Shown here piece after piece: positions 14,558 to 44,297 of a stretch of DNA of 64,000 nucleotides. The stretch spans positions 7,420,501 through 7,484,500 of the forward strand of contig NZ_CP041360.1 in NCBI RefSeq assembly GCF_006965485.1, in the 5' to 3' direction. The stretch is from Spirosoma sp. KCTC 42546 (GTDB taxonomy: Bacteria; Bacteroidota; Bacteroidia; Cytophagales; Spirosomataceae). The notes beneath the pieces are model-generated. The model had not been told where the DNA came from. It worked only from the letters and a program-made list of their open reading frames with translations, and did no database searches. Position numbers and translations under genes: made by a program. Positions within the stretch are counted from its first letter, which is position 1, and every line of letters starts with the position of its first letter.

Positions 14558-17500
14558 ATGACCCCTCTTTTACAGCTCACTCATTGTACCATTTTGCGAG
14601 TGCATAGCCTGCTAATTACGCTGCTCTGCGTCGGCCTGCTCGCTCAGGGAAAACCCATCGGTTCTAGTACACCCATGATCGATGCTATTACCGATTCAAC
14701 AACTGTCGATAGCATACGGGCCGGATATACGGATTTAAGTGGAGGAACTGACCGGCTTTTACGTGATGGCTGGCTGACCAGCGATGGGCCGAAAGTTATG
14801 CATCCAGCCGGAGCAGCCTCGTTCGAGATAGTTCACAATGGGGTAAAGAAAATTAGTGAGACTAAGGCCCGTTTAGAAGCTGCCCCCCTCTCAACGCTTG
14901 ATTACCAGCCGTTGATGGATCTGTATACTAGCACGAATGGACCAAACTGGACCAACCATACAGGTTGGGGCAACGGTACTGACCCCTGCACGGGTAATGG
15001 TGGGCAACCGTGGTTTGGTCTAACCTGCGATAATGGACGAGTTAATGAAGTCTCTTTAACTAGTAACAACCTGGTAGGTAGTCTTCCCGCTAGTCTGAGT
15101 GGGCTCACAGGTTTAACAGTGCTTCGAATTAACCAGAATTCACAGTTGGGTGGCAGCATTCCTACTGGATTGATCAATTTAACCGTCCTGACTGACATCG
15201 AACTGGATAACAATGCCTTGACGGGTTCGATTCCTACCGATCTAACTACACTGACCAACCTGCGCTATCTTTATTTACATCATAATCAGTTAACAGGTAG
15301 TATTCCTGCTAATCTGCCTACAAATCTGCAATACCTTGAATTACAGCACAATCAGCTAACGGGTAGCCTTCCTGCTAACTTGTTTGCCATGACCAGTATT
15401 CAGTATATTATTCTAAGTGCTAATCAGTTAACAGGTACTATCCCAGGTAACCTGAGTGCTTTGACCAGCCTGCTAAACTTTAATGTAAGTGAGAATCAGC
15501 TGACAGGGAACATTCCCACGAGCCTACCGACGAGCCTGCAAGGATTTGAGTTACAGGATAATCAGTTAACCGGTAGCATTCCGACTAATCTGCCTAAGAA
15601 CATAGAAAGACTTAATTTAAATGATAACCGGTTAACGGGTAGTATACCGACCAACCTGAATACGCTAACCAAACTGATAGAGATTAATTTATATAACAAT
15701 CAGTTAACGGGTGGCATTCCAACGAATCTGCCTACGAGTCTGCAATCCATTGATTTAAATAAAAATCAGTTAACGGGTAACATTCCTGCTAGTCTGGGTG
15801 CTCTGCCCAATCTAAAGGCCCTTAATTTAAGCACTAATCAATTGAGTGGTTGCTTTCCGGCTTCATTAACAGCGCTTTGTGGAGAAGGACATACTATTTA
15901 CTTAAGTAATAACCCAGGCCTGCCAGGAGAGGGCGACTTCAACACATTCTGTAATACGGGTGTTGGCAGTGACGGGTTTTTGGCCCAGGCTTCGGCTGAT
16001 CAGGCTGAAGTCTGTGTCCAGAGCGTAGTCAGTTTAAGTGCTAACGGTGGAAGCGGCTACACGTACAACTGGATAAGCCCAGCCGGAGCCATGCTAAGCA
16101 GTAGTTCAGACCAGACCGTGTCGGCAACGCTGACCACTTCAGGCGTGAAAACCTTCACGGTGGTGATTAGTAGTGGGCAGAGTTGCAGCAGCACAGCTAC
16201 GCTTAGGATAACAGCGAATAGCTTACCCACAGCTAGGTTAGAGAGCAATGGTATCCTGACCTGTGCCGATCCTAGTGTTCGATTGACAGCTACCGGCGGT
16301 ACATCGTACACCTTTGTTAACAGTAGTGGTGAGGTTTTGGCCGAATCAGGCAACATCCTAACGGTAACTACCCCTGGTACGTATTCGGTTAGGGTCGGCA
16401 ATGCCAATGGCTGTGTCAGTACCACCAGCACGACCGTCCTTGGCGACACAGATCCACCGACAGCTACTATTCTGGCTCCAGCCAGTAGCACAATAACCTG
16501 CACCACCACCAGCTTAAGCCTGACGGCCACCGGCGGAGGTACTTACCGGTGGGACAACAATACGACCAGTGCCATCCGAACCGTTACCGCAGCAGGTAGC
16601 TATTCCGTCACCGTTAGAGCTCCTAACGGCTGTACTGCAGTGGCCACACAGGTCATTATGGGCAACACAGATCCACCAACAGCTACCATTCTGACTCCAG
16701 CCAGCAGCACAATAACCTGCACCACCACCAGCCTAAGCCTGACGGCCACCGGCGGAGGTACTTACCGCTGGGACAATAATACGACGAATGCCATCCGGAC
16801 CGTTACCGCATCAGGTACCTATTCGGTCTCGGTTATAGCTCCTAACGGCTGTATTTCAGTGGCCACACAGGTCATTATGGGCAACACGGCCACAGTGTCG
16901 GTGTCGAATCCTTCGACCACAACCGCTAACCAGGGCACGTTCTTTAGTCAGACCTTTCTGGCCAGTGGTGGGCTGACCCCTCGTAGTTTCAGCTTAGCTA
17001 GCGGCAGTTTGCCGGATGGTTTAAGTCTGTCTACTACAGGAGTGTTGTCGGGGACACCCACACAAGGGGGGAGTTTTACCATTACGGTACGAGCTACAGA
17101 TGCCAATGGGTGTTCGGGCATTGGAGCATCTTATGTTATGACCGTTGCAAGTAACACACCTATCATTACCGATTTTGCAGCAGTGAATACGAGTATGTGT
17201 GTGGGTAGCCCCTTCACCTTCACGGCTACAATTGGCAACGTAACAGGCAACTACAACTACACGCTCACGAATGGCATCAACCTCCCCTCGATGGGTGTAA
17301 AAAGTGGTACTGCTTTCAGTTTGAATGTAACTCCTTCTGGATCGGGAAATCAAAGCTACACATTGGTTATCAGCGACAACGGTCAGGCGGCATCAGCAAT
17401 TGCCAACATAACTGTAAGTCCATTTCCGGTTCCTAGTCTGAGCAATAATGGACCCGTCAGTTGCACCATGACTACCGTAACCCTGACGGCTTCGGGCGGC

Positions 17501-20500
17501 ACCTCCTATACATTCGCGACGGGTGGAGGAGTGGTAGTAGGAACGCCGGGTTCATCGAACACCGCGAATGTAACCACGGCAGGTGGCTATACAGTGCGAG
17601 TGGCCAATGCTACGGGCTGTGTGAGTACCACCACTACCACAGTGGGCACCATCGTTGCGACCGTCACTGTCGACAACCCAACTACGGCAAACGGAGTAAA
17701 GAATGCAGCGTTTAGTCAGGACTTCAGCGCACAGGGGGGCACTTCTCCCCGTAGGTTCAGTGTGGCCAGTGGTAGCTTGCCAACAGGACTAAACTTATCG
17801 ACCACCGGTATCTTGTCGGGTACACCTACGCAAAGTGGTAGTTTCCCCATCACTGTACGAGCCACTGATGTCAATGGCTGTCCGGGTGTAGGTGCTACCT
17901 ATATCTTGACGATTGTGGATAACACCCCAATTATTGCAGGCTTTGCGGCTGTTAACGATGCGGTTTGTGCGGGTAGCCCTATTACCTTCACGGCTACAAT
18001 CAGCAATGTAACGGGGGCTTACAGCTACACACTCACCAACGGAATCAGCACCCCGACAACTGGTACCAAAACGAGTGCTTCCTTCAGCCAGACCCTAACT
18101 TCTGCGGGTTCAGGCAGCCAGAGCTTCAGGCTGATTATCAGCGACAACAACCAGTCGGCATCTGCCACTACTGATATAATGGTGAATGCATTGCCAACAC
18201 CTGGCCTGACCAACAATGGGCCGATCAGCTGCACCCTGCCTGCGGTGACCTTAACTGCCTCGGGCGGCAACTCCTACACGTTCACCACGAGTGGTAGCAC
18301 AATGATAGGCACGCCAGGGGCAGCTAACACAGTAGATGTGGGCACATCAGGCACCTATACGGTCAGAGTCGCTAATGCCAGTGGTTGTGTGAGTACCACC
18401 ACCACCACCGTTACCGGATCAATACCCACTATCACCGTTACCAACCCGACCACAAGAAGTGGCATCGTGAATGTAGCATTTAGCCAGAACTTTGCTGCTT
18501 CAGGTGGGGCAACTCCCCGTAGCTTCAGCGTAGCCAGCGGTAGTTTGCCGGATGGCCTGAGTTTATCGACTACCGGTAACCTGTCGGGTACACCCACCGA
18601 AGGAGGTAGCTTCACGATTGCCGTGGGCGCTACCGATGCCAACGGATGCTCTGGAGTGGGCGCGGCTTATGTGCTGACGATTACAGACAACACGCCCACC
18701 ATTGCCGATTTTGCCGCAGTGAACAACGCAGTTTGTGTGGGTAGTCCTGTCACCTTCACGGCTACAATCAGCAATGTAACAGGGACTTACAGCTACACAC
18801 TCACCAACGGAGTCAACACCCCAACAACCGGCACCAAAACGAGTGCTTCCTTCAGTCAGAATCTAACTTCTTCTGGGTCGGGCAATCAGAGTTTTACGCT
18901 CATTATTAGTGATAATGGCCAGTTATCGTCAGCAACTACCAATATAACGGTGAGTTCATTTCCTGTGGCCAGCCTGATTAACAATGGTCCCATCAGTTGT
19001 ACTTTGCCTGCGGTGACCTTAACCGCTTCGGGTGGTGACTCCTATACGTTTACCAACGGTGGAACTGTACTTGGTACACCAGGTTCAACGAACACAATAG
19101 AGGTGACTACCGCAGGTACCTATACGGTAAGAGTAGCCAATGCCAGTGGTTGTGTGAGTACCACTACCACAACAGTAACTGGCGCTATCGCTACGGTGTC
19201 GGTTAACAATCCCACCGTCACAACGGCCACTCAGGGGTCGGCTTTCAGTCAGGCTTTCACCGCCAGCGGTGGGACATCTCCCCGTAGTTTCAGTGTGGCC
19301 AGCGGTAACTTACCCGATGGGTTGAGTTTATCGACCACCGGCGTTTTATCGGGTACACCTACCGAGAGTGGTAGTTTTACCATCACCGTTCGAGTTACCG
19401 ATGCCAATGGCTGTTCGGGTGTGGGAGCTAATTACATCCTGACCATTACAGACAACACACCCACCATTGCTGATTTTGGAACGGTGAACACCAGTGTATG
19501 CGTGGGTAGCCCTATTACCTTCACTGCTACGGTGGGTAATGTGTCGGGATCGTACAACTACACACTCACCAATGGGATTGGTACACCGACCACTGGGCTG
19601 AAAACCGGTGCGGCTTTCAGCCAGGATCTGACCTCTTCTGAGTCAGGCAGCCAGAGTTTTACCCTACTTGTCAGAAACAATGGTCAGTTGGCCTCTGCAA
19701 CGACTGATGTAACCGTGAATTCATTACCGATACCCAGCCTAACTAACAATGGCCCCATCAGTTGCACGCTGCCTGCGGTGACCTTAACCGCTTCGGGTGG
19801 TGACTCCTATACGTTTACCAACGGTAGCGGGACGATATTGCCCGGCACCGGCAACACTCAGTCGATTACTACGGCTGGTACGTATTCTGTCACGGTGGCC
19901 AATGCCAGTGGTTGTGTGAGCAGCACCAGCACCACGGTTATCAGTAACGTCGTCGTGCCAGCTCTCAGCGTCAGCCCAACCAGTGCTACCCTAACCAACG
20001 CCAACCCGACCGCTACCCTGACTGCCAGCGGAACTGGCTCCTTCCTTTGGTCGACGGGCCAAACCTCGCCGATGATCTCGGTGACCACCAGTGGCAACTA
20101 CTCGGTCACCCTGACCAATGCCACGGGATGTACAGCTACTGCCAGTGTGCCGGTGGTGGGTTCGGATTTGACCATTACGCTGGATTTACCTCAGGCCAAC
20201 TTTGCTGCATCGGGTACAGCAGCAGTGGGCAACTTTGTGGTCAACGTCTTTGAGGTGGCGGGGTTGCCTACCTCATCGGGCAAAGTGACCATTACCATCA
20301 CGGCACCAGTAGGCTACACCATCTCATTTGCACCGACCCTGGCCAGTATCAATGTGTCGGGGGGAGGCACAGTGGCGGTCAATAATGGGCAGTGGTCAGT
20401 CACCAATACACTAGCGGCTCGACAACTGACCCTGACGATGAACTCAGGGACCTTTATTACGGGAGGTGGCGAATCGAGTTTAGGGTTTAGTATCACCCGA

Positions 20501-30107: not shown

Positions 30108-30700
30108 CATAAAGGTGCTACTATCAAGCAGCCCACTTTGTCGAAACGGCCTCTGGTATAGGGGTAGTCACCTGAATATCAGCTCGAACTTGCTTTTGCG
30201 AATGCAGTTGGACAGATGGGTAGGCTCTGGTTATGTAGTCAACACCAGGCTGGATGAACTGACAGGCTGAGTGGATGACCCGGGGTCTGAGGTTAGCGTT
30301 TACCCTAATCAGTAAAAATGAACATGCTATATACCGATACCCACCAAACCCAGACCAGAGCGACCCCGTTGCGCTAACAGGAATCGTATAACAATAGCGG
30401 TCTGGATTGGAAGTAAAGATTTTAGGAGCAAGCCTCATTCGCATCAAATTTATTGCTGGCCCAAAAATCCTACATAACGTCCGAACTAATCGTAACTTTT
30501 GTAGCAACATTTATAACAAATGTTGCAGAATGAGTAAATGTGCAGGAAATTGAATCAACAGTAGGGATATAGAGCGTATGCTCTACAAAAACACCGTTGG
30601 CTTTGTATCGCCCTCGGCTTTCAGCTGATTAAAAAATTTATGCAGCGCTAATTCGGTCAGGAAGAGTAGTACGTATAGCACCTCTTTCGAAGCTCCAACA
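30108..30700. other. Decayed or non-coding stretch with one perfect hairpin
   Basis: A 128-codon minus-strand frame (30124-30510) has no recognisable domain, signal or codon pattern and I do not accept it as a gene. GCAACATTT (30504-30512), loop ATAAC and AAATGTTGC (30518-30526) make a perfect 9-bp hairpin without a U tract. Nothing else is supported. Confidence 0.5.
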
Positions 30701-30736
30701 TAGAAAAGCCCAGCCTTAATCAGCTGGGCTTTTCTA
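30701..30736. terminator. Strong bidirectional terminator
   Basis: A perfect 14-bp stem (TAGAAAAGCCCAGC, 30701-30714, with its complement at 30723-30736) surrounds an 8-nt loop. It lies 20 bp past the stop of the minus-strand gene at 30756-31127 and carries U-rich edges on both strands. Confidence 0.85.
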
Positions 30737-30755
30737 TAAAGTACAGAGCCTGCGT

Positions 30756-31127
30756 TTATTGCATGGCAATTGTACGGCTGGTCTGTTGAACGGGCGTCGA
30801 CAGATTTACTTGTTTCCGAATGCTGCCTTCGCTTGATTTTACTTCCAGTTCATACTCTCCATCGGCCAGTTGATCAACATTCAACTTCATGGCATATTTA
30901 GCTTCTTTCTTGCCAATGCTTTGCTGATACAGAACTTCATTGTTTTTATTGCGAAGCAACACAACAACTGGTGTCTCGGTTGATTTCTGGACCGCAACCC
31001 GGATTTCATGGTTGATTGTCACATACGCGCTGGCATCGAACGAAAGTGCTTTGGGAGTAGTGGGATTAATAAAGGAAGAAGCGCTCAATAAAATAGAAAC
31101 TGCGGCTTTGCTCATTAGTGGTAACAT
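30756..31127 (-). CDS. Small secreted beta-sandwich protein (DUF3244 / sorting-domain-like)
   Basis: The 123-residue protein has an N-terminal signal-like helix (MSKAAVSILLSASSFI, from the second Met) and one domain in which IRVAVQKSTETPVVVLLRNKNNEVLYQQ and LNVDQLADGEYELEVKSSEG follow the strand pattern of DUF3244 and T9SS type A C-terminal sandwiches, but without preceding cargo. Many Bacteroidota encode such short secreted proteins of unknown role. The gene is monocistronic, with a strong terminator. Its upstream region has a sigma-54-like promoter (31183-31198) and a tandem dyad (31254-31290), suggesting activation by an enhancer-binding protein. Confidence 0.68.
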   Translation of the reverse strand: MLPLMSKAAVSILLSASSFINPTTPKALSFDASAYVTINHEIRVAVQKSTETPVVVLLRNKNNEVLYQQSIGKKEAKYAMKLNVDQLADGEYELEVKSSEGSIRKQVNLSTPVQQTSRTIAMQ

Positions 31128-31182
31128 GGTAGTAGCGTGTTTAGTCTTTAAATAGGCGTTGTTTACTAGTTGCTACATCTAT

Positions 31183-31198
31183 TCCAAAGCTTGTGCCA
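31183..31198 (-). promoter_or_regulatory. Sigma-54-like promoter upstream of the small secreted protein gene
   Basis: On the minus strand the sequence reads TGGCAC, five bases, TTGGA. The -24 block is perfect and the -12 block differs from TTGCA at the C. It would start transcription near 31173, 46 bp before the ATG at 31127. The deviation at a normally invariant base keeps confidence moderate. Confidence 0.4.
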
Positions 31199-31253
31199 GT
31201 TTCTTATACCAATTGACTGTCAACATATTACGCAGTGTGCCATTAACGGGTGC

Positions 31254-31290
31254 TGTCCGTAACTGGACAATTTCTGTTCACTTGCGGACA
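31254..31290. promoter_or_regulatory. Tandem 16-bp dyads, 21 bp apart (enhancer-like operator A)
   Basis: TGTCC-N6-GGACA occupies 31254-31269 and TGTTC-N6-GGACA occupies 31275-31290, separated by 5 bp, so equivalent bases are 21 bp (two helical turns) apart. It lies 55 bp beyond the sigma-54-like promoter. The same layout recurs at 34990-35026. The remainder of the 31128-31520 gap shows nothing else. Confidence 0.65.
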
Positions 31291-31520: not shown

Positions 31521-32075
31521 TTATAGTGGTAGATTCTGGTATGAACACAGTCGGTAAACTTTATCACGACTTCGTTTAATCCGCATCTTAACGGTGCTAA
31601 GCTTCAGGTTATACAACTGAGCAATCTCCTCAAAACGCATTCCCTGCTCATACTTAAGCTTTAAGAGCGTCTGTTCGTTAGCCGACAAACTAGCCATCGC
31701 CTGTTTAAGCAGTTGAAGGGATTGTTCCTGAATTTGGGCATCCTGCCCTTCAGACGAACAAGTCTCTTCACTTTCATCGAGCGTAGTCAGCGTAAGCCGC
31801 TTGGATAAGCGGAGCTGGCCAGCGCAGTAATTGTGCGTAATTGAATAAAGCCAGGTAGAAAAACTCGACCGTTCGTGAAAGGTATCTAACTTACTAAACA
31901 TCTTGATAAAGATGTCATGCGTAAAGTCATGGGCATTCTCCGTGTCCTTAGTGATGGATAAACAATGCCGATATACTTTGTTGACGTACCGATTATAGAG
32001 AGTCTCGAAGCACTCATTGGGTTGATGAGGCATGTATTGCCGAATCAGGGCTTCGTCGGTTAGTGAAGTAGACAT
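31521..32075 (-). CDS. ECF-type RNA polymerase sigma factor
   Basis: The 184-residue protein has sigma region 2 (about 25-90, with DFTHDIFIKMFSKLDTFHERSSFSTWLY) and region 4 (about 125-175, with LSANEQTLLKLKYEQGMRFEEIAQLYNLKLSTVKMRIKRSRDKV), and nothing between, as in extracytoplasmic-function sigma factors. No anti-sigma gene (FecR or zinc-binding type) adjoins it, which is unusual because most Bacteroidota ECF genes are paired with one. The next gene on the same strand is the small secreted protein about 390 bp downstream. Confidence 0.92.
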   Translation of the reverse strand: MSTSLTDEALIRQYMPHQPNECFETLYNRYVNKVYRHCLSITKDTENAHDFTHDIFIKMFSKLDTFHERSSFSTWLYSITHNYCAGQLRLSKRLTLTTLDESEETCSSEGQDAQIQEQSLQLLKQAMASLSANEQTLLKLKYEQGMRFEEIAQLYNLKLSTVKMRIKRSRDKVYRLCSYQNLPL

Positions 32076-32190
32076 AAGTAAGCTGCGTAACAGTTGACTT
32101 GTAGTTTAGTAAAATAAAGGTGGCGGTTATATAGTTTATTAGTGATCTATATTCGATGAATAGCATAAATTGCCGTCTTTTAAGTAATAA

Positions 32191-32207
32191 TTGGCTTCTT
32201 TTTTGCC
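32191..32207 (+). promoter_or_regulatory. Sigma-54-like element upstream of the Hpt gene
   Basis: TTGGCTTCTTTTTTGCC keeps the GG-N10-GC spacing of sigma-54 promoters, with a good TTTTTTGC -12 block. It is about 190 bp before the Hpt ATG. No dyad like those at the other two sites is visible upstream, and the T-rich context makes a chance match possible. The rest of 32076-32399 shows nothing else. Confidence 0.3.
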
Positions 32208-32399
32208 AGGCCAGTAATTACCTAAAATGAGCACAGAGTAGACGCCCGCTAGTGCTAGGCCGTCAGGGTGCTATGTAGGGTTCAAGTGCCGGTTATTTTA
32301 TAACTTCTAATTAGTGAACTAGCTATCTATCTGAACAATTATTTACATTAGTACCTATTTTAATACTTGTAATTTAAATACTGTAGTTTTTTTATACTT

Positions 32400-32852
32400 A
32401 TGAGGACGGACCCAGACTTGGCATTGACACAGGTAGATCAGAGGGCTGGGATGGTACAGGAAGGAAATCGGCTAGCGAATACCCCCTCAACTCATCTGCT
32501 GGATACAGAACGACTGCGTGAATTATATGGTGAGGATACTGCCTATGCTGCCAGTATGTTCGAAACATTTCTGGAAACAGTATGGCCGGAATTTGATACG
32601 TTCGATACGCTTATTGCGGAACAACGCTGGGTAGATATACGTCTGTTAGCTCATAAACTAAGACCTACTCTTGGCATGGTGGGTTTATCAGATCTGGAAA
32701 TATTACTAGCCCAGTTTGAGGAATTAGCCGCTACAACCACCAAATCCGAGCGGATTAGCCGTCTCTGGAATCAATTACATTCCGATCTGATAAGCTGTAA
32801 ACCACTTGTTCAGGCCGAATGGCAACGCTTGCTGACAACAACCATACCATGA
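32400..32852 (+). CDS. Hpt-domain phosphotransfer protein
   Basis: The 150-residue protein contains one histidine phosphotransfer domain at about 45-130, with the phospho-acceptor His85 in LLAHKLRPTLGMVG and helical flanks typical of the four-helix bundle. Such proteins relay phosphate from a hybrid kinase receiver to a response regulator. Its stop overlaps the start of the LytTR regulator (ATGA), so the two are translationally coupled and probably partners. No cognate kinase is nearby, so the phosphate donor must be encoded elsewhere. The N-terminal 30 residues are poorly structured. Confidence 0.88.
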   Translation: MRTDPDLALTQVDQRAGMVQEGNRLANTPSTHLLDTERLRELYGEDTAYAASMFETFLETVWPEFDTFDTLIAEQRWVDIRLLAHKLRPTLGMVGLSDLEILLAQFEELAATTTKSERISRLWNQLHSDLISCKPLVQAEWQRLLTTTIP

Positions 32853-33541
32853 TCCTGAAATGTATAATCGTTGATGATGAAACGATGGCTCGCAAGGCCT
32901 TGCAACGCCTTTGTGAGCAACACGAATCCTTAGACATAGTGGCGATTTGTGAGAATGCCACTCAGGCTCTGAACGTATTATCAGAACATGAAATTGATTT
33001 GATCTGGCTGGATGTTGAAATGCCGGAGCTATCAGGATTCGACTTACTGGATCGACTACCCGTTGTACCACAGGTTATTCTGACAACCGCTAAAACAGAT
33101 TATGCCTTTGATGCCTTTCAGTACCAGGTTACGGATTATCTGAAAAAGCCTATAACGCAACCTCGCTTTAAGCTAGCTGTTGAGAAGGTTCTGGCAGCAC
33201 AGAAAAAGAATGAGCCAGTGCGGCAGGGGGATAATAAAGCCATTTATGTCAAGTGTGATGGCCGCTATGTTCGCGTTCCCTATGATTCAATCATGTATAT
33301 TGAAAATGCGGGCGACTACGTCAAAATCCTGACCAGCCAACAGGCGTTTGTGGTCTATACAACGATGAAATCACTGGAAGAAAAATTAGGAACACAGTTT
33401 CTCCGGGTTCATCGGTCTTATATCATTAACCTGGATAAAATCGTCGATATAGAAGAGAGCAATTTAGTGGTAGCTTCAAAAGTAATTCCCATTAGCCGCG
33501 CCAATAAGTCCGAACTGATGAGTCGGTTAAATTTATTATGA
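32849..33541 (+). CDS. LytTR-family response regulator
   Basis: The 230-residue protein has a receiver domain (about 1-120) with the acidic pair IIVDDE, the phospho-acceptor Asp in IWLDVEMPELSG and the conserved Lys in YLKKPI, then a LytTR DNA-binding domain (about 135-228, VPYDSIMYIENAGDYVKI, FLRVHRSYIINLDKI). I chose ATG 32849 because it overlaps the Hpt stop by four bases and gives the standard MILKCIIVDDE start; an upstream in-frame ATG at 32819 would add ten residues inside the Hpt gene. It likely receives phosphate through the Hpt protein. Confidence 0.93.
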   Translation: MILKCIIVDDETMARKALQRLCEQHESLDIVAICENATQALNVLSEHEIDLIWLDVEMPELSGFDLLDRLPVVPQVILTTAKTDYAFDAFQYQVTDYLKKPITQPRFKLAVEKVLAAQKKNEPVRQGDNKAIYVKCDGRYVRVPYDSIMYIENAGDYVKILTSQQAFVVYTTMKSLEEKLGTQFLRVHRSYIINLDKIVDIEESNLVVASKVIPISRANKSELMSRLNLL

Positions 33542-34989: not shown

Positions 34990-35026
34990 TGTACTAAAAT
35001 GGACGCTTGCTGTCCAAAATCGTACA
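34990..35026. promoter_or_regulatory. Tandem 16-bp dyads, 21 bp apart (enhancer-like operator B)
   Basis: TGTAC-N6-GGACG occupies 34990-35005 and TGTCC-N6-GTACA occupies 35011-35026, with 5 bp between. Half-site, spacer and 21-bp period equal those of operator A at 31254-31290. A sigma-54-like promoter begins 53 bp downstream. Confidence 0.65.
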
Positions 35027-35079: not shown

Positions 35080-35095
35080 TGGTATAGTAGTTGAC
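35080..35095 (+). promoter_or_regulatory. Sigma-54-like promoter of the predicted small RNA
   Basis: TGGTAT, five bases, TTGAC fits the TGGYAY-N5-TTGCW consensus except at the base after TTG. The deviation is at the same position as in the promoter at 31183-31198. Initiation would fall near 35105. Confidence 0.4.
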
Positions 35096-35104
35096 TCATA
35101 AATA

Positions 35105-35210
35105 GTGATCCCCATTAACTCGAAACTACCAGTAGGGTGTAACAGTAATGTCGTGGAGTTTAGGTTAAGAAAACGCAAAGGCCATACTCATCTTGAAGTA
35201 TGGCCTTTTT
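35105..35210 (+). ncRNA. Candidate sigma-54-dependent small RNA, about 105 nt
   Basis: A sigma-54-like promoter and an intrinsic terminator bracket about 105 bases that contain no reading frame longer than six codons (ATG at 35147). The dyad operator upstream matches one found ahead of another gene. No known RNA family is recognised. This is an inference from flanking signals only. Confidence 0.4.
35177..35210 (+). terminator. Strong intrinsic terminator with no upstream gene
   Basis: AAAGGCCATACT (35177-35188) and AGTATGGCCTTT (35197-35208) make a perfect 12-bp stem with an 8-nt loop and a T tail to 35210. The preceding 600 bp hold no plus-strand gene, which is why a small RNA is proposed. 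Confidence 0.88.
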
Positions 35211-35319
35211 GTATCCATACGTTTGTGATATGAGTAGATTTCCGGCAACCAGTAGCTTCCAATTCCGTCGTAAGGCTCTGCCTGAATGATTAGTTGCCTT
35301 TTAGAAATACCTGTTACGT

Positions 35320-36051
35320 ATGAGCTTTATAAACCCAATTGCCAAAACCTGGCTGGCTGGCTTTAACCTTCTCTTATCAACTGTACATAGCCAGGCTATA
35401 CCGCTCCCTACTCCATTCCCAGCAGTAGTTCAACAAACGAAACCGAACGCAACCAGTGGCTGGCGGCAGCTTTTCAATGGAACTGACCTTACCAGCTGGA
35501 AACATGTGGGTAAGGGAAGTATGTCTGTTGAAAACGGATCGATCCGTGGTCATGGTGGCATGGGATTGCTATACTGGACAAAGGAAAAATTCAGCAACTG
35601 TACCATTAAGGTGGTTTACAGAATGCAGAAAGAGAATAGTAACTCGGGCGTCTATATTCGAATACCCCTCGAGCCCCGCGAAGAATGGATGCCGGTTCAT
35701 TATGGGTATGAGGTGCAAATTGATAACCATCCAGAAACGTCTAAAGAGGATGATACGCACATTACCGGAACGCTCTATTCCCTAAACAAACCGCTGGCTA
35801 AGCCCGGCAAACCCGGTCCGGAATGGAATACCATGAAAATTACGCTGGACGGGCCTCGTACCATCATTTCAGTCAACGGCGTAAAAGTGACCGACTATAA
35901 AGAAGGTGACCCCGTACCGGCACGTAAATTTGATTTTGAGCCCTATCGGGGCATACGACCAAATGCAGGGTACATCGGTTTACAAAATCACGGAGAACAT
36001 GACGTCGTATTCTTCAAGGAGGTATCCGTAAAGCCACTTACCAAAAATTAA
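35320..36051 (+). CDS. Secreted DUF1080 protein (3-keto-disaccharide hydrolase-like)
   Basis: The 243-residue protein has a signal peptide (about 1-26, WLAGFNLLLSTVHSQA) and one DUF1080 domain, a concanavalin-like jelly roll, with GWRQLFNGTDLTSWKHVGKGSMSVENG at its start, NSGVYIRIP in the middle and GYIGLQNHGEHDVVFFKEVSVKPL at its end. Characterised relatives cleave 3-keto-glycosides made by Gfo/Idh-type oxidoreductases, and DUF1080 is also a glycan-binding fold. Eleven bases separate it from the CBM6-like gene downstream, so the two form an operon. The Gfo/Idh genes at 44-48 kb may supply its substrate. Confidence 0.88.
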   Translation: MSFINPIAKTWLAGFNLLLSTVHSQAIPLPTPFPAVVQQTKPNATSGWRQLFNGTDLTSWKHVGKGSMSVENGSIRGHGGMGLLYWTKEKFSNCTIKVVYRMQKENSNSGVYIRIPLEPREEWMPVHYGYEVQIDNHPETSKEDDTHITGTLYSLNKPLAKPGKPGPEWNTMKITLDGPRTIISVNGVKVTDYKEGDPVPARKFDFEPYRGIRPNAGYIGLQNHGEHDVVFFKEVSVKPLTKN

Positions 36052-42941: not shown

Positions 42942-44297
42942 TTAGTCCGGTAAGCCTGCTTCCTGAAGTTTTCGATATAAAGTCGTCAGACCAATATCCA
43001 ACAAGCGGGCGGCTTCTGCTTTATTACCGTTTGTATGGCGTAGCACCCGTCGAATATGTTGCTGTTCAACGGTGGCCAGGTCCATAGCGGCTGGGTTAGC
43101 GGGAAATAAGCCATCCTGCATATCGTAGGGTAATAAATCGGGGGTAAGTTCGGTTGAACCATCGTCATGGGTATCGGCCAGGATAACCGCCCGCTCAATG
43201 ACGTTCTTCAACTCGCGAATATTGCCTTTCCAGGCGTGTTGCTGGAGTTTTTGCACAAAGGCTGGACTAAGCTGAATAGCCCGTTTACCCACCTTAACGG
43301 CCTCCTGTTGCGCAAACTGACCAGCTAATGTCGGAATGTCGTCGCGTCGGTCGCGGAGGGGTGGCAGCTCAATACTGAATACCGACAATCGGTAATAGAG
43401 GTCTAGGCGAAAGTGGTTTTCAGTTGCCGCCTGTTCCAGGCTTCGATTGGTGGCAGCAATGACCCGAACATCGGTTTTGGTTGGCTTGGTGTCACCCACA
43501 CGCAGGAACTCGTGGGTTTCGAGTACCCGTAGTAGTTTAGCCTGCAAGTCGAGCGGCATTTCGCCGATCTCGTCTAAGAAAATCGTGCCTTTATCCGCTT
43601 CGGAAAAGAGTCCTTTTTGATCACGACTGGCCCCGGTAAAGGCCCCGGCCCGATGGCCGAAGAGTTCACTTTCGAGAATGTCTTTACCCAGAGCCCCGCA
43701 GTTGATGGCCACAAACGGTCCCGTTCGGCGCGGACTAGCCTGATGAATAGCCTGAGCAAATACTTCTTTGCCGGTGCCTGTTTCGCCCGTGAGGAGCACA
43801 GTAGTATCCGTAACGGCCACTTTTCGAGCCAGTTCGATTGCGTGCTGTATTGATTTCGAGTAGCCAATTATACTATCGAAGCCGTAGCGCTGCCCTACCC
43901 GTTGTTCCAGTTGCCTAATTCGGAATTGCAGCGAGGCTTTCTCAACGGCCCGGCTCACTAGTGGGATAATCCGGTCATTGTCATCACCCTTTGTAATGTA
44001 GTCGAACGCGCCGTTTTTGATAGCTGTCACCCCATCCGAGATAGTACCGTAGGCGGTTAGTACAATGATTTCGGTAGCTGGGTAAAGTTGCTTAATCTGA
44101 GCCGACAACTCAATACCATTTTTGTCCGGCAATTTCACATCACTGATTACCAGATGAATATCATCCCGTTCGAGGATTTTCAGGCCAGCGCGGGCGTTTT
44201 CGGCTTCCAGCACCGTGTAGCCCTCCAGTTGCAGGATACGAGCCAGAAGCTGACGTAACCGCGACTCGTCGTCGATAATGAGAATAGTAGCAGCCAA
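42942..44297 (-). CDS. Sigma-54-dependent NtrC-family response regulator
   Basis: The 451-residue protein has a receiver (1-120; Asp53 in ISDVKLPDKNG), an AAA+ domain (about 140-375) with Walker A GETGTGKE (171-178), the sigma-54-contact loop GAFTGA (218-223) and Walker B TIFLDEIGE, and a C-terminal Fis-type helix-turn-helix (GNKAEAARLLDIGLTTLYRKLQ). It binds enhancer dyads and drives open-complex formation by sigma-54 polymerase. No sensor kinase gene adjoins it. It starts 43 bp after the Gfo/Idh gene at 44341, so it may be the tail of that cluster. It is a candidate for binding the tandem dyads at 31254 and 34990. Confidence 0.95.
   Translation of the reverse strand: MAATILIIDDESRLRQLLARILQLEGYTVLEAENARAGLKILERDDIHLVISDVKLPDKNGIELSAQIKQLYPATEIIVLTAYGTISDGVTAIKNGAFDYITKGDDNDRIIPLVSRAVEKASLQFRIRQLEQRVGQRYGFDSIIGYSKSIQHAIELARKVAVTDTTVLLTGETGTGKEVFAQAIHQASPRRTGPFVAINCGALGKDILESELFGHRAGAFTGASRDQKGLFSEADKGTIFLDEIGEMPLDLQAKLLRVLETHEFLRVGDTKPTKTDVRVIAATNRSLEQAATENHFRLDLYYRLSVFSIELPPLRDRRDDIPTLAGQFAQQEAVKVGKRAIQLSPAFVQKLQQHAWKGNIRELKNVIERAVILADTHDDGSTELTPDLLPYDMQDGLFPANPAAMDLATVEQQHIRRVLRHTNGNKAEAARLLDIGLTTLYRKLQEAGLPD

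Follow-up and report, generated by a model that had tools for sequence, protein, structure and literature searches.

A predicted sigma-54 enhancer of paired dyads and its candidate activator at scattered promoters in Spirosoma sp. KCTC 42546

In Spirosoma sp. KCTC 42546, two dyads with a half-site of the TGTCC type lie upstream of a sigma-54-like -24/-12 element and probably form, with an activator encoded near 1.224 Mb, a regulatory system that serves many promoters. The enhancer and its sigma-54 promoter, leaving the activator aside, are the firmest part of this reading, and we consider them very probable. The activator is most likely the REC-AAA+-HTH_8 protein G000:C1:1224307-1225692 acting with the neighbouring histidine kinase (G000 is this genome, and the protein belongs to the class labelled L055). 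The recurrence of the arrangement, its spacing, phase and conservation, and its linkage to particular genes can be read directly from the genomes.

The window, that is, the whole stretch of 64,000 nucleotides that was analysed, holds two copies of the arrangement. The first is composed of the following features.

30700..30737, minus strand: perfect 15-bp inverted repeat 3' of the small protein gene
30756..31127, minus strand: small protein gene, 123 aa, DUF3244-like, downstream of the -24/-12 element
31183..31198, minus strand: sigma-54-like -24/-12 element, TGGCACAAGCTTTGGA, read on the minus strand from 31198 to 31183
31254..31269, minus strand: promoter-proximal dyad, TGTCCGTAACTGGACA on the plus strand and TGTCCAGTTACGGACA on the minus strand, with both halves consensus
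31275..31290, minus strand: promoter-distal dyad, TGTTCACTTGCGGACA on the plus strand and TGTCCGCAAGTGAACA on the minus strand

An earlier note on this DNA had described the two dyads, their start-to-start period of 21 bp and a minus-strand TGGCAC-N5-TTGGA element 55 bp from the dyad, and each of these was found in place. The inner half of the distal dyad is GAACA, which makes it an off-consensus half-site 2. The -24/-12 element has the twelve-base G-G/G-C spacing, with GG instead of GC at -12. With the T taken at -26, a convention that we assume, transcription presumably starts near 31172, which leaves 45 nt to the ATG at 31127. The inverted repeat at 30700..30737 reads as terminator-like and is absent from the terminator scan list. 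The region between the two window sites (31521-33541) holds a minus-strand ECF sigma factor gene and then two plus-strand genes, which encode an Hpt-domain protein and a response regulator of the LytTR type. The LytTR protein (32852-33541) might be a binder of 21-bp repeats. Among named organisms, Spirosoma supplies the nearest homologues of a neighbouring gene.

Single dyads are mildly enriched in the window, with three against a shuffle mean of 0.99 (8 of 100 shuffles reach three), and by themselves are weak evidence. The -24/-12 pattern with one mismatch allowed shows no enrichment in the window (12 against 16.0 expected). The scan of the genome and its relatives proposed in the earlier note, for TGTNC-N6-GNACA pairs at 21 bp, yields nine exact, six one-mismatch and six two-mismatch copies in the 8.66-Mb genome, and the pair is present in 35 of 59 relatives. 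When a stricter form was sought in 390 genomes of the order, 56 had it. The reversed pattern, used as a control, occurs nowhere in the 8.66-Mb genome, the 59 relatives or the 390 genomes, and the nine exact copies against none bear out the view that the pair is not explicable by chance. When the gap between dyads is left free from 0 to 30 in the 59 genomes, nine of the 16 perfect pairs turn out to have a gap of 5 and the other seven a gap of 6, which puts the period at 21 or 22 bp. Position 6 of the half-site, which lies outside the search pattern, is constrained too: 161 of 172 half-sites from 43 loci have A or G there, and the dyad consensus is TGTCCR-N4-YGGACA. Locus L086, whose site is absent from the expected position, was left out of the half-site count, the 72-locus promoter count and the polarity count.

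The best -24/-12 element was sought up to 250 bp on either side of the pair, at 15 loci of this genome and then at 72 in all, with scoring weights taken from the usual sigma-54 consensus. It scores at least 17 in 56 of the 72 dyad loci, and 52 of these 56 elements lie at 41-69 bp; 16 loci are without a strong element. The background reaches this score at 108 of 188,920 positions. Elements scoring at least 16 fall at 43-47 bp (4), 52-56 bp (37), 62-68 bp (20) and beyond 190 bp (5). The distances cluster near 44, 54 and 64 bp, mostly at about 54 or 64, and phasing at 10.5 bp gives a Rayleigh p of about 4e-17 over the 72 loci, a value that is too small because many of the loci are related by descent.

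Upstream of the small protein gene, the arrangement is conserved between species. A match was present in 43 genomes, and 30 of these contributed their best homologue, one locus each. The homologues range from 100 to 41% identity, and upstream of 29 of the 30 both the pair, with no more than one mismatch, and an element at 54-56 bp are kept, in line with the conservation at orthologues that the earlier note had made a condition. Of the 29 homologous promoters with the pair (L016-L044), 27 have TTGG in the -12 part, against TTGC in the usual consensus, so the TTGG variant is conserved too. The genome has one rpoN gene. The reading as an NtrC-type enhancer with a sigma-54 promoter, first put forward in the earlier note, is thus well supported by recurrence, by conservation at the homologues, by phasing at the 72 loci and by the presence of rpoN.

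In the mechanism that we propose, an NtrC-type two-component activator would bind the two dyads, which are two helical turns apart, and form an AAA+ ring. The bound activator would touch sigma-54 RNA polymerase at the downstream -24/-12 element on the same helix face, and the promoter of the small exported protein would be opened. Binding, phosphorylation, sigma-54 dependence and the signal are the steps that we infer.

The genome encodes ten strong sigma-54 activators. In relatives of three genera, the pair adjoins activator-kinase genes of the L055 class. It lies 140-175 bp upstream of the L055-class activator gene in G374, G403, G059 and G174 (173 bp in G174). In genus g89, a recognisable L055-type activator stands beside the pair in 12 of 13 dyad loci, and the longer stretch available at locus L199 places the kinase after the activator. 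In G059, the pair is flanked by the activator-kinase operon on one side and a MacA/MacB operon on the other, and each side has its own element, one at 54 bp and one at 55 bp. In four genomes (G000, G011, G039 and G360), the adaptor gene that adjoins the L055-class activator is preceded by one strong dyad, which has an element at a distance of 55 bp. In this genome, the MacA/MacB-like operon next to the 1.224-Mb activator has the dyad and the promoter, with a degenerate partner dyad, and no full pair is present at the activator's own gene. Eight further dyad-bearing genomes, for which all activators were listed, have the pair beside an activator in two cases (G374 and G403) and in none of the other six, and a separate set of genomes likewise gave no activator adjoining the pair.

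Among 148 genomes, an L055 match above 500 bits is present in all 13 that bear the dyads, several of them with more than one such homologue. The class is also present in about 52 of 135 genomes without the pair (hand count), so its co-occurrence with the pair is suggestive; the hypergeometric value of 1e-5 is built on this hand count and on related genomes and carries little weight. The activator tree has its own limits of sampling: of 99 loci, 34 lacked an activator frame under the filter used, and 7 of 65 lacked a usable core, so that L051 is absent from it, and 12 of its 14 dyad-adjacent activators were fetched via the dyad. The L055-class activator is below every curated NCBIfam cut-off shown, the best being PrsR (TIGR02915) with 351.4 against 502.6 bits.

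Among the competing explanations, the one that survives best keeps the enhancer and assigns it to the L051-class protein (G000:C1:4214788-4216140), or to several related activators that share sites. The recognition helices of L051 and L055 resemble each other closely, with ALYRRLEKFG in each, and the L051 gene adjoins MacA, MacB and FtsX genes in a MacA/MacB-type operon of its own. However, the dyad of that operon (L146 ~17430-17540; G000:C1 near 4.222 Mb) is another one, TGTGCGAAATCGCACA; it is accompanied by a degenerate second dyad, and TGGCACGTTGTTTGGC lies at a distance of 53 bp. The 20-kb stretch around L051 has no TGTCC pair, and the L051-type motif was found nowhere else in a search of 59 genomes, which leaves this assignment unlikely. 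The layout at the L051 operon is that of the TGTCC pair with another half-site. A sister regulon of the same shape, built on TGTGC/GCACA and allowing at most two mismatches, appeared at one place in 59 genomes, distinct from the L051 copy, so that motif is a single-locus observation.

Somewhat less probable again is the same mechanism driven by the NtrC-type protein encoded in the window at 42942-44297, which the earlier note had named as the regulator. The domains of this protein are REC, sigma-54 activator and HTH_8, its gene is 12 kb away from the site, and 10 of the 13 dyad-bearing genomes have an orthologue (in G052, a piece at a contig end only). The assignment is probably wrong because the other three dyad-bearing genomes, G174, G028 and G130, have no orthologue (best matches 325, 311 and 309 bits), and G028 and G174 are single-contig assemblies. 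The protein also belongs to a clade separate from the 14 dyad-adjacent activators, and the members of its clade in the tree have no pair in their stretch. On clade and missing orthologues, it was rejected as a candidate, and that part of the earlier note did not stand.

With an L055-class activator as the probable regulator, the sites in this genome number about 20 and are scattered over it. They comprise 15 with at most one mismatch, three two-mismatch sites with a fitting element (the count covered three of the six), one 22-bp pair and one single-dyad site. The same enhancer at about 20 promoters would define a regulon. Permease operons follow 10 of the sites: seven are PadR and permease operons (L002, L003, L004, L007, L008, L010 and L208), and three have FtsX-type permease genes (L209-L211), judged by sequence appearance. 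The Pfam test covered the PadR genes of L003 and L004 and one permease, plus the prefix domain of that permease. Three sites precede genes for small DUF3244-like proteins. Single sites belong to a DUF4097 (toastrack) protein, a beta-lactamase-fold hydrolase, a MacA-like adaptor operon and the second window copy, and three sites (L005, L011 and L012) are unassigned. Most likely, a single signal-sensing regulator activates a large set of pump-like transporters jointly with small exported proteins, and the target set suggests an envelope or antimicrobial stress response.

A PadR-type gene stands first in seven of the roughly 20 target operons (Pfam-tested for two), as would be expected if the dyads were repressor sites for the PadR regulators, but pairs also stand before genes without PadR, such as those of small proteins and activator-kinase operons. 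Moreover, the pairs stand a good distance upstream of the predicted start and keep a fixed phase relative to the -24/-12 element, and we give the repressor explanation very little credence. The idea that the pair is a product of chance or a mobile repeat element, to which the mild enrichment of single dyads in the window would lend itself, is refuted so far as sequence can tell by the empty reversed control across 390 genomes, by homologues that keep the motif bases alone while spacer bases vary, and by an element phased with the pair.

The second window copy, site 2, is composed of the following features.

34990..35005, plus strand: first dyad, TGTACTAAAATGGACG
35011..35026, plus strand: second dyad, TGTCCAAAATCGTACA
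35080..35095, plus strand: weak sigma-54-like element, TGGTATAGTAGTTGAC, which differs in Spirosoma arboris at its last base only
35106..35213, plus strand: predicted RNA of about 108 nt that would end in a hairpin, with its start placed from the -24/-12 position

The earlier note had taken this as a recurrence of the same arrangement. The copy is real, but it has one mismatch to the pair pattern, the first base of its element is 54 bp from the dyad end as against 56 at the first site, and a hairpin precedes the next gene. This hairpin (~35177-35212) is followed by TTTTTG on the plus strand and lies between the site 2 start and a hydrolase gene (35320-36051), so site 2 probably does not act as a simple promoter for it. 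In the terminator scan the hairpin appears for the minus strand alone; taking it as a plus-strand terminator is our own reading. The hydrolase gene was rejected as a plain target, with the pair present upstream of one of 14 homologues scanned (L219-L232, from 10 Spirosoma, two Fibrisoma, one Segetibacter and one Mucilaginibacter), that of Spirosoma arboris. Site 2 probably yields the RNA of about 108 nt, as a small RNA or an attenuated leader, and not hydrolase mRNA. Spirosoma arboris (L219:2340-2447) keeps the dyads, the element and the hairpin, along with some 25 nt that precede the hairpin, and in the stem one pair has gone from A-U to G-C with both sides changed. The stretch folds a little better than its shuffles (z of -2.4), 5 of 200 of which are as good. 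Among 299 sequences searched, Spirosoma arboris is the one relative found with this predicted RNA, and Rfam gives no match at site 2, its three sub-threshold matches all being elsewhere.

The enhancer may also have a direction. Half-sites were numbered 1 to 4 reading towards the promoter at 64 loci oriented by promoter; the count leaves out the 8 of 72 loci without an element scoring at least 16 at 39-72 bp, including L010 and L015 of this genome. Exactly one half-site is off consensus in 41 pairs, at position 2 in 34, position 1 in three, position 3 in four and position 4 in none, a tally inflated by homology between sites. In this genome, it is at position 2 in 11 of 11 such pairs. The other oriented pairs have no off-consensus half-site (13), two (8) or three (2). 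In genus g89, 12 of the 13 pairs located between an activator gene and a transporter gene are symmetrical, and the two-sided pair of G059 retains one weak half-site. That the enhancer is polar, and that the site 2 small RNA adds a post-transcriptional arm to the regulon, is a tentative proposal that we lean against more than towards. If it holds, the weak far dyad would become occupied cooperatively, helped by the strong one nearer the promoter, and activation would be cooperative and directional. Textbook enhancers, unlike a polar one, are orientation-free.

The 123-aa protein downstream of the first site is probably exported, judging from its N-terminus. It is predicted to form a seven-strand beta sandwich, with a pLDDT of about 90 over residues 31-110 (17-sequence alignment). 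The nearest structures in the PDB to this predicted fold are Bacteroides DUF3244 proteins (E of about 1e-4, TM 0.44-0.51), and in the Pfam test for DUF3244 (PF11589) the protein scores 22.2 bits, below the 25-bit gathering cut-off. Two loci of genus g105 (L155 and L156) have a pair and a strong element 54 bp away facing a gene for a protein of about 172 aa with a signal-like N-terminus; no recognised activator is close by in the stretch covered.

No paper describing this enhancer was found in the open-licence literature. The analysis offers a readable enhancer code for a Bacteroidota regulon with scattered sites, and a candidate activator with its kinase. The members of the regulon are MacB/FtsX-type transporters and PadR regulators, together with small exported proteins that are unstudied. 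By sequence, activators could be paired with sites over many genomes.

NtrC and glnA form an NtrC/sigma-54 enhancer system. Like the NtrC, ZraR, AtoC and PrsR systems, the one proposed here would combine a REC-AAA+-HTH_8 activator, paired upstream dyads in phase and a -24/-12 promoter. Unlike these NtrC-type systems, its dyad is TGTCCR-N4-YGGACA, its period is 21-22 bp and its targets are scattered over the genome. In Vibrio, LuxO is a sigma-54 activator that drives the Qrr small RNAs. A sigma-54 activator driving a small RNA is what is suggested for site 2; unlike Qrr, the predicted site 2 RNA is known from two species only.

Sigma-54 control of FtsX-like permeases in Bacteroidia has been predicted by promoter matching, and in the portions of that paper available the activator is not given, its specificity being described as not to hand for all organisms studied (PMC12316311). 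Permease genes with -24/-12 promoters are common to that work, as far as those portions go, and to ours, which adds the enhancer and a candidate activator. In Flavobacterium psychrophilum, the available text on the sigma-54 motif SM4, of the -24/-12 class, mentions three activators and assigns none (PMC9723704). As described there, SM4 resembles the present case in its Bacteroidota host, -24/-12 promoters, envelope-stress functions and uncharacterised exported proteins. Toastrack (DUF4097) domains and PadR-type regulators are presented as stress-system partners, with an FtsX/MacB_PCD fusion named, in the accessible part of a further paper (PMC11237479). The link drawn in that part is one of gene neighbourhood and domain fusion, whereas here it would be a common enhancer at separate places in the genome.
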